Source of the DNA: Ferrimonas sp. YFM
GTDB taxonomy: Bacteria; Pseudomonadota; Gammaproteobacteria; Enterobacterales; Shewanellaceae
NCBI RefSeq assembly: GCF_030296015.1
Contig: NZ_AP027368.1
Coordinates: 558,001 to 622,000, forward strand
Direction of reading: 5' to 3'
DNA length: 64,000 bases
Part shown: positions 876 to 2,407 of the stretch, piece by piece
Numbering within the stretch: the first letter of the stretch is position 1
How the letters are laid out: the number at the start of each line of letters is the position of its first letter
Notes under the pieces: generated by a model
The model's input: only the letters and a program-made list of their open reading frames with translations
Told to the model about the DNA's origin: nothing
Database searches by the model: none
Made by a program: the position numbers and the translations under genes

Positions 876-1454
876 TCAGCGGACGGTCAGCCAGCGTTTG
901 GGGGTGACTACCGCATCCAGGGGGATGTCCCAGGGCTCACGGTCCAGGCGCTCCAGCCGCTGAATCTCGTGGGCGCAGCCCACCAGCAGCGGCCTGGGGC
1001 TCTCTCCCGCCAGGTAGCGATCATAGTATCCGGCGCCCATGCCCAGACGGTTGCCCTGCTCGTCGAAGCCCACCAGGGGCATCAGCATCAGCTCAATCTG
1101 CTCCCTGTGGAGTATCTCACTCTCTGTCCAGGCCGGTTCGGCGATGCCGTACCTGTTGTTCACCATGGCGGTGTCGGGGGCGAAGCGCTGGAACAGGATC
1201 TGTTTAGGGTCACTGGGATCCATCACCGGCAGGACCAGGGTCTTGTGCTGCTGCCACAGCAGGCGTATCAGCGGCATCAGATTGGGTTCGCCATCATTGG
1301 CCAGGTAGAGCGCTATGGTCTTGGCCTGGGCAATCTCGGATTGGTTAATGAGAGTGTGGGCCAATGCCTGAGAGGCCTGACGTTGCTGTTCGGGGGAGAG
1401 GGCGCGGCGCTGCTGGCGAAGGTGCTGACGAAGTGCCTGGCGATCCTGGGGCAT
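876..1454 (-). CDS. fau: 5-formyltetrahydrofolate cyclo-ligase
   Basis: A 192-residue protein of the YgfA/MTHFS family, which converts 5-formyl-THF to 5,10-methenyl-THF using ATP in the cytoplasm. Visible family marks are the basic N-terminal helix (RQHLRQQRRALSPEQQ), the phosphate-binding glycine-rich stretch LGMGAGYYDRYL near residues 137-148, and the C-terminal DIPLDAVVTP. Length is normal for the family. It lies downstream of the 6S RNA genes on the same strand, the order seen in many gammaproteobacteria (zapA - ssrS - fau), where it may be read from the 6S transcript. The one-carbon role fits the nearby glycine cleavage genes. Confidence 0.93.
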   Translation of the reverse strand: MPQDRQALRQHLRQQRRALSPEQQRQASQALAHTLINQSEIAQAKTIALYLANDGEPNLMPLIRLLWQQHKTLVLPVMDPSDPKQILFQRFAPDTAMVNNRYGIAEPAWTESEILHREQIELMLMPLVGFDEQGNRLGMGAGYYDRYLAGESPRPLLVGCAHEIQRLERLDREPWDIPLDAVVTPKRWLTVR

Positions 1455-1511
1455 GGTTACTCATCCTGATGGTTAATCAGGATTAAAGGTACCGGAGATG
1501 GCAGGAGAGAG

Positions 1512-1698
1512 AAAGAGTGCTCCCCACAGATGTCGCTGCAGGTGTAAGCCCGTGAACCGTAGGTTCAGGGCGGGAACACTGCCTTCGCCGTAGGCTTCTC
1601 GGTACTTGCCGAGCATGCGCAGTAGCGCCGGAGAGTGAACCCTTGGTTAGTAGCATCGGCCAGGGACATAACCCGCTGACGAGCACCACAGGGAGCTT
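1512..1698 (-). ncRNA. ssrS: 6S RNA, distal tandem copy (copy A)
   Basis: Read on the minus strand this has the 6S RNA hallmarks: a closing stem (GCTCCC at the 5' end pairing with GGGAGC at the 3' end), and the conserved GCATGCTCGG (1609-1618) and CCGAGAAGCC (1593-1602) arms that form the apical stem next to the open bubble mimicking a promoter. 6S RNA sequesters sigma-70 RNA polymerase in stationary phase. The position between zapA and fau is the canonical ssrS locus. It differs from copy B at about 17 of 183 positions by hand alignment, without gaps. No good -10 hexamer is seen just before its 5' end, so it may depend on transcription from copy B. Confidence 0.85.
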
Positions 1699-1830
1699 GT
1701 AACTTTTCGGGACCGGGTCCCGGGACGGGGCGATTCTTTGTGACTCTGGGGTCGCAGGAACCGGTTTGCCGCCACTTTCGGCAGGTCACCTGAGTGACTT
1801 GCCACACCGGACTCCATGGAGTCACGGTGG

Positions 1831-2018
1831 AGAAGAGTGCTCCCCGCGGATGTCGCTGCGGGTGTAAGCCCGTGAACCGTAGGTTCAGGGCGGGAACACT
1901 GCCTGTGCCGTAGGCTTCTCGGTACCTGCCGAGCATGCGCAATAGCCCAAGGGAGTGAACCCTTTGTTGATAGCATCGGCCAGGGACATAACCCGCTGGC
2001 AAGCATCACAGGGAGCTC
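1831..2018 (-). ncRNA. ssrS: 6S RNA, proximal tandem copy (copy B)
   Basis: The second full-length 6S RNA, nearer zapA. It has the same closing stem, the same apical arms (CCGAGCATGC 1929-1938, GGCTTCTCGG 1913-1922 as read on the plus strand) and the same length as copy A. A TACAAT hexamer on the minus strand (2028-2023) lies about 6 bases before the predicted 5' end near 2017, a well-placed -10 box. After its 3' end a hairpin around 1803-1831 has no T-run, so transcription may continue into copy A. Open frames overlapping the two copies are artefacts. Confidence 0.88.
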
Positions 2019-2022
2019 AGTA

Positions 2023-2028
2023 ATTGTA
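2023..2028 (-). promoter_or_regulatory. -10 box of 6S RNA copy B
   Basis: TACAAT on the minus strand, 6 bases upstream of the predicted 5' end of copy B. No convincing -35 hexamer at the right distance. Confidence 0.45.
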
Positions 2029-2068
2029 GAGCGAAATACCGTTCGGTGCCTTGCTCTGTAATTCCAGA

Positions 2069-2407
2069 CTACTGCGAGTCTGAGTCGGACTCAACCGATT
2101 TTGGCTGCGTCACTTCACGTTTGCGCAAAGCCTGTTCAATGGCGTTTTCAAGTGCCTGAATTTTCTTCGATCTCTCCTGCATTTCCCGTTGAGTACGGGT
2201 CTCCAGGTTCATCAATTCATGGGTCAGGTTGAGGGCGGCCATCACCGCCAGCTGATCGATGGAGAGCAGGGCGTTGCGTTGTTTGAGCTCAAGAAAACGC
2301 TGGTTCAGCTGGTGCGCGACCTGCTGCAGGGTGGCCTCCTCCCCGGGGGGGCAGGCGATGGTATAGACCCGTTCGAGAAGCGTAATTTCTATGGTGTTTG
2401 AGCTCAT
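2069..2407 (-). CDS. zapA: Cell division protein ZapA
   Basis: A 112-residue protein starting MSSNTIEITLLERVYTIACP. It fits ZapA, the small cytoplasmic coiled-coil protein that bundles FtsZ and recruits ZapB. The N-terminal domain (residues 5-60) includes the PGEEATLQQVAHQLNQRF helix, followed by a long coiled coil (60-95) and an acidic tail. The open frame runs further upstream, but that extension lacks family similarity and crosses the divergent promoter region, so the ATG at 2407 is chosen. Next to it is the 6S RNA pair, as in most gammaproteobacteria. Confidence 0.93.
   Translation of the reverse strand: MSSNTIEITLLERVYTIACPPGEEATLQQVAHQLNQRFLELKQRNALLSIDQLAVMAALNLTHELMNLETRTQREMQERSKKIQALENAIEQALRKREVTQPKSVESDSDSQ

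Follow-up and report, generated by a model that had tools for sequence, protein, structure and literature searches.

The window, by which we mean the whole 64-kb stretch of Ferrimonas DNA that was analysed, holds two full-length 6S RNA genes and one tRNA as its matches above the Rfam gathering scores. The two 6S genes form a tandem pair on the minus strand, where the order is zapA, copy B, a 139-nt spacer, copy A and the 5-formyltetrahydrofolate cyclo-ligase (5-FCL) gene. 6S RNA is a small RNA that restrains the main RNA polymerase; as a family, it binds the sigma-70 holoenzyme and serves as a template for product RNAs (pRNAs). Its gene, ssrS, is usually located between zapA and fau in gammaproteobacteria.

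876..1454, minus strand: 5-FCL gene, fau/ygfA (Pfam PF01812, E 4.2e-46)
1517..1697, minus strand: 6S RNA gene, copy A, downstream (RF00013, 96.6 bits, full model)
1837..2017, minus strand: 6S RNA gene, copy B, upstream (RF00013, 101.3 bits, full model)
2069..2407, minus strand: zapA (Pfam PF05164, E 5.4e-21)

Both copies match the RF00013 model from position 1 to 187 of 187 (cmscan), copy B at 2017-1837 with an E value of 3.2e-19 and copy A at 1697-1517 with 4.1e-18, and both score above the curated gathering score of 46.4 bits. The initial annotation, which had placed two tandem 6S genes at the ssrS locus, is borne out by these full-length covariance-model matches and by the Pfam matches of ZapA and 5-FCL on either side. 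Across the whole 4.66 Mb genome, a single contig, copies A and B are the sole 6S matches at E values up to 0.001, and no Rfam family besides 6S was found in window positions 1440-2110 up to an E value of 1. Open frames of 120 and 145 amino acids cross the 6S genes (window 1565-2009, minus strand).

Judged by their sequences, both copies appear to have the family traits of 6S RNA, namely the closing stem, the central bubble, the apical arm and the pRNA template. The predicted template, running from T43 back to position 20, is identical in copies A and B over its 24 nt; we take the start at T43 and the template role of GTCCCTGGCCGATGCT to be as in E. coli. This template core, GTCCCTGGCCGATGCT, is present in all 20 6S copies of the genus. 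When the Rfam 6S structure is laid over these 20 copies, 92.2% of cells are paired (0/500 shuffles) and 54 cells are changed on both sides (0/500 shuffles). The count of 11 pairs with both sides changed is less unusual (32/500 shuffles), and that of 41 further pair types is not unusual (308/500 shuffles).

Distribution and origin of the second copy

Two 6S matches were found in 6 of the 14 Ferrimonas genomes and one in the other 8. In all six two-copy genomes, the copies are adjacent, with spacers of 105 to 220 nt. The two-copy genomes are the window genome (G000), F. futtsuensis DSM 18154 (G005), F. sediminicola (G009), G006, G010 and G013, and the single-copy genomes include F. aestuarii (G001), F. 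marina (G008), F. senticii (G011) and the F. balearica strains (G003, G004). Of 56 named contigs retrieved by way of the neighbouring pepP gene, 54 have a single copy and two, from F. futtsuensis and F. sediminicola, have a pair. The initial annotation had regarded the absence of copy A from close relatives, together with decayed pairing, as evidence against it; this does not apply to the closest species sampled, F. futtsuensis and F. sediminicola, since each of them has copy A, while F. aestuarii and others are without it. A contig titled Marinobacter nauticus DP3N21-5 (NZ_JAHVJZ010000008.1, L125) carries a pepP 72% identical to that of the window and a Ferrimonas-like 6S RNA; its genome (G012) groups with the F. 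balearica strains in the tree, and the record is probably mislabelled.

Three draws extended the search beyond the genus to 864 genomes, comprising 138 from the family, a further 361 from the order and a further 365 from the class. In the large draws, scoring was confined to the top 6 or 15 candidates of each genome, and second copies may be missed as a consequence. At least 21 of the 864 have two or more 6S matches (G112, G367, G430 and 18 of the class draw), and several of these matches fall below the family cut-off. A tandem arrangement was seen in two of the 864, G367 and G430; each of the remaining 19 has its matches on separate contigs or widely spaced. The two tandem pairs (G367:C9:37488-37998 and G430:C64:15155-15556), with spacers of 123 and 48 nt, belong to one family (f3) of the same order. 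G112 was rejected as a tandem case, since its second match, of 49.1 bits, lies on another of about 1060 contigs. Dispersed 6S-like matches occur in family f68 of the class draw, in G553 (5), G693 (3) and G799 (2); 3 of these 10 are above the family cut-off, and they may represent either genuine additional 6S RNAs or chance matches.

A species tree was built from six neighbouring proteins (2761 columns; one protein is without the three outgroups). The window genome, F. futtsuensis and F. sediminicola form clade I, and G006 and G010 form clade II; all five are two-copy genomes. The two clades are joined with a support of 87, and the single-copy F. aestuarii adjoins them. G013, the sixth two-copy genome, is placed elsewhere, beside the single-copy G007 and F. 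senticii, and parsimony therefore requires at least two duplications in the genus. The 6S copies themselves cluster by clade and not by position. In the AU test, one old duplication without conversion is rejected (p ~1e-7), and the by-clade tree and the tree with paralogs within each clade receive 0.62 and 0.23, respectively. From the clustering and this rejection, clades I and II may represent either separate duplications or a single duplication that was homogenised.

Clade I has 31 variable columns. Four of them, situated in the centre and the apical arm, are shared within species; three, all in the closing stem, separate the copies in each of the three species; a further four do so in two species only, and the remainder are single or mixed changes. 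In sequence, some clade I sites thus look homogenised within species. Clade II has 12 copy-specific and 2 species-specific columns out of 21 variable ones. The copies differ persistently, but unalike in clades I and II. The downstream copy of G006 and G010 is closer to the single copy of F. aestuarii than the upstream copy is.

The spacers were also compared with their own upstream 260 nt, against mononucleotide shuffles. The spacers of clade II are homologous to the zapA end and the promoter region (G006 and G010, 0/300 each), and so is the G013 spacer (0/300). This comparison revealed no homology for the clade I spacers (G000, 50/300; G005, 189/300; G009, 109/300).

Fold and conservation of the two copies

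In a direct comparison, copies A and B differ at 17 of 181 positions with zero gaps and are about 91% identical. Positions 66-76 and 112-113 are among those where the two copies of the window can be told apart. The initial alignment by hand gave about 17 differences and no gaps, but overstated the length as 183. The 17 differences touch nine base pairs of the Rfam structure, five in the closing stem and four in the apical arm. All five touched closing-stem pairs still pair, through C-G/U-G, A-U/G-U or G-C/G-U exchanges; the chance of this is 0.07 for random transitions and 0.0004 for any random substitution. Of the four in the apical arm, one is kept, one is gained in copy A and two are broken in copy A. 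The earlier statement that the terminal-stem changes preserve pairing, sometimes by G-U, agrees with the five closing-stem pairs.

Copy A of the window has nine G-U and five broken pairs, and copy B has seven and four. Compared with shuffled sequences, the copy A fold has a z score of -2.42, with 6/200 shuffles folding as well, and the copy B fold has one of -4.67, with 0/200. These pair counts and predicted folds would favour a slight weakening of copy A. In clade I (three genomes), Watson-Crick and G-U pairs number 36 and 9 for copy 2 and 39 and 7 for copy 1; the fold energies are -75.6, -77.7 and -76.0 kcal/mol for copy 2 and -82.5, -85.3 and -79.4 kcal/mol for copy 1. The ranking is inverted in clade II, with -72.2 and -72.3 kcal/mol for the upstream copy and -74.9 and -78.9 kcal/mol for the downstream one. 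Two outer closing-stem pairs are lost in the upstream copy of both G006 and G010 (L057, L061).

The initial annotation had suggested a division of labour between the copies. In such a case, they would be distinct isoforms, the weaker fold and closing stem of copy A altering polymerase binding, release, stability or timing. The lower Watson-Crick count, the additional G-U pairs and the weaker fold of copy 2 in all three clade I genomes are in line with this, as are the closing-stem location of the three columns that follow the copy in every clade I species and the excess of copy-specific columns in clade II. In Legionella pneumophila, 6S2 and ssrS are expressed differently (PMC3048289). However, the pRNA template is identical in the two copies, RpoD gives one PF04546 match in each of the 14 genus genomes, the copies group by clade with signs of conversion, and the sites shared within species occupy the centre and the apical arm in clade I. 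Moreover, since the weaker copy in clade II is the upstream one, no common rule for isoforms emerges. We consider the division of labour doubtful. A second sigma-70 factor as the reason for two 6S copies was rejected on the same single PF04546 match per genome.

In the pairwise comparison of the window genome with F. futtsuensis, 2/181 positions of copy A are changed, against 28/137 in the spacer (p 1.8e-9); copy B shows 8/180 changes plus one gap, and the 60-nt stretch following copy A shows 25/60. In clade II, both copies differ at 6/183 each and the spacer at 22/138 (p 8.8e-5). Copy A is not decaying, and both copies are conserved as RNA and better than the spacer, which agrees with the initial proposal that both seem to be maintained under selection. 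Conversion from copy B could, nevertheless, make copy A look constrained. A neutral duplicate would have no effect, with copy A untranscribed and its similarity kept by conversion only. The eight genus genomes without a second copy, the mosaic sites, the lack of a clear copy A promoter (below) and the copy A fold, which stands out less from shuffles than that of copy B, would all fit such a duplicate. It is hard to reconcile with the retention of the second copy by every one of the five genomes sampled in these two clades (I and II), the low divergence of copy A relative to the spacer, the covarying spacer hairpins described below, and the clade II copies, which are distinct yet both conserved. 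We regard neutrality as quite improbable.

Promoter-like sites and the predicted spacer hairpin chain

Two promoter-like sites precede copy B.

2023..2052, minus strand: proximal promoter-like site of copy B, AAGGCA-18-TACAAT (8/12 consensus positions)
2066..2094, minus strand: distal promoter-like site of copy B, TTGAGT-17-TAGTCT, overlapping the zapA stop (pattern in 14/14)

The proximal site, with its TACAAT -10 box at 2028-2023, matches 8/12 consensus positions in the aligned register, a score reached by 51/2000 shuffles. It scores 8/12 in the three clade I genomes and 7 or 8 of 12 in 10 of the 14 first copies of the genus. The distal pattern, TTGANN-17-TANNNT, lies at -52 to -58 in all 14 first copies. 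Since its score of 7/12 is at chance level for one sequence (a best-of-range score of at least 7 occurs in 1821/2000 shuffles), the argument for it is its fixed place and spacing, and the overlap with zapA may help conserve it. A threshold consensus promoter scan was discarded as evidence, as it found 0 sites even for copy B.

For copy A, no -10 box was found in the aligned register, where the score is 5/12 in the three clade I genomes (reached by 1043/2000 shuffles), and no hexamer in this register is common to the three species. The initial observation of a well-placed TACAAT for copy B and no obvious -10 box for copy A thus agrees with the aligned-register scores of 8/12 and 5/12. The F. 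futtsuensis spacer contains a 7/12 candidate with its -10 at -41, and the other two clade I genomes have no equal-scoring counterpart. A -35/-10-like stretch scoring 6/12 persists before the second copies of clade II. In G013 (L064:1861-2440), the first copy is without a good proximal -10 (5/12), and the second copy keeps both promoter-like sites (8/12 and 7/12).

Copy A might have its own promoter invisible to these scans, such as a stress sigma promoter, which would place it under independent control. The scans covered the sigma-70 consensus only, and the sites before the second copies of clade II and G013 are compatible with this idea. In clade I, on the other hand, the three species share no hexamer in the aligned register before copy A, and a hairpin recurs there instead. 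We consider a separate copy A promoter unlikely.

The predicted structure of the spacer is a chain of hairpins.

1698..1836, minus strand: 139-nt spacer, predicted hairpin chain (fold z -3.37, 0/200 shuffles)
1805..1829, minus strand: hairpin 1 (10 pairs, 3 changed on both sides across three species; 93.3% of cells paired)
1779..1804, minus strand: hairpin 2, predicted in three species (65.4% of cells paired, 2 pairs changed on both sides)
1724..1773, minus strand: hairpin 3, outer stem GGCGG/CCGUC (5 outer pairs invariant in two species, the third gapped)
1708..1722, minus strand: hairpin 4, just 5' of copy A (6 pairs; predicted fold)
1698..1707, minus strand: AAAAGUUACA, unpaired in the predicted fold, putative processing site before copy A

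Folded separately, the three clade I spacers give a like order of hairpins, with z scores of -3.37, -3.08 and -3.23 (0/200 shuffles each), while up to 42% of their aligned bases differ. When pairs are counted on their alignment with the stems of the window fold, 85.9% of cells pair, compared with 26-51% in slid controls. Six of 30 pairs are changed on both sides (3/500 shuffles), a result from only three sequences, for a structure derived from one of them; further pair types are not unusual (116/500 shuffles). The low pairing of hairpin 2 is read as an alignment out of register. In hairpin 4, one C-G of the window genome is U-A in F. futtsuensis; the third species is gapped and predicted to fold alike. 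The clade II spacers are little structured (z -0.85 and -1.83; 40/200 and 11/200 shuffles), and the hairpin linker is therefore not general.

The preservation of structure while the sequence changes suggests that the clade I spacer is made as RNA, and hence as part of a B-spacer-A transcript. The common precursor that the initial annotation had envisaged for copy A accordingly appears likely in clade I, judging from this predicted and covarying structure. In the minimum-energy fold of the 561-nt precursor, copy B pairs with copy A in place of two separate 6S folds. Folding during transcription, together with the linker, could prevent this pairing.

A probable common precursor and a proposed effect on 6S RNA dosage

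The explanation that we think probable is a tandem ssrS duplication in this branch of the genus that gave two working 6S genes, expressed as one B-spacer-A transcript that is cut in two, with dosage as the main effect. Both copies would be transcribed together from the promoters upstream of copy B, and the hairpin chain would help separate the two 6S folds. Single-stranded stretches in the spacer would be exposed to a nuclease such as RNase E, releasing two RNAs. RNase E prefers unpaired A/U-rich sites, according to a study of the Bacillus cereus group (PMC7726162), and AAAAGUUACA, the 10 nt between the last hairpin and copy A, is a place of this kind, being predicted as unpaired and A/U-rich; processing there is inferred. 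The chief gain would be a higher yield of 6S RNA from each transcript, and the copies may be kept alike partly by gene conversion. Dosage is a likelier gain than a division of labour because of the identical pRNA template, the single RpoD match per genome and the homogenisation within species.

We give little credence to a more elaborate arrangement, in which a strong-stem isoform (B) and a weak-stem isoform (A) would be produced in a fixed ratio with the spacer as a dedicated processing element, and in which the paired fold of copies B and A could be a regulated inactive state. If this were true, weak-stem A would release RNA polymerase at a different rate, and one promoter region would set a two-speed response.

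The precursor and dosage explanation can be compared with known systems. In the B. cereus group, two 6S genes, ssrSA and ssrSB, also lie in tandem on one strand, and their co-transcription was shown experimentally in B. thuringiensis; the sequence before the second gene is without promoter activity, and growth was not significantly affected when only the second gene was deleted (PMC7726162). In the window, copy A scores 5/12 in the aligned register of the sigma-70 consensus, as in shuffles, and may likewise be without a promoter of its own. In that group, however, only 21 nt separate the genes (+1 to +193 and +215 to +398), whereas the spacer in the window is 139 nt with predicted hairpins, and the copies of the window, about 91% identical, belong to another phylum and another genomic place. 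The "new regulatory layer" for sigma-70 polymerase proposed in the initial annotation is weakened by this published precedent of tandem co-transcribed 6S genes. L. pneumophila is likewise a gammaproteobacterium with two 6S RNAs, ssrS and 6S2 (PMC3048289), but its pair is distal, not tandem (PMC4211561), and differently expressed (PMC3048289). Bacillus subtilis also has 6S-1 and 6S-2 in one genome, but their genes are distal, their expression is distinct and, according to preliminary reports, so are their regulons (PMC4211561). With the ssrS of RF00013, the Ferrimonas genes share sequence, fold and neighbour genes, and differ in being two copies and not one.

No earlier report of a 6S RNA or other small RNA in Ferrimonas was found in the literature searched, a scope outside which the main survey lies (Wehner 2014, PMC4615782). 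On the sequence evidence, what seems new is the occurrence of near-identical tandem 6S copies in a gammaproteobacterium, apparently arisen more than once, and, in one clade, a copy A without a recognisable promoter behind a putatively covarying hairpin linker. 6S RNA is usually single in the class, and its doubling at least twice within one genus, beside single-copy relatives, makes Ferrimonas a natural experiment on 6S dosage. The promoterless-looking second copy behind a hairpin linker may offer a way to study how two 6S RNAs are obtained from one transcript without cross-folding.
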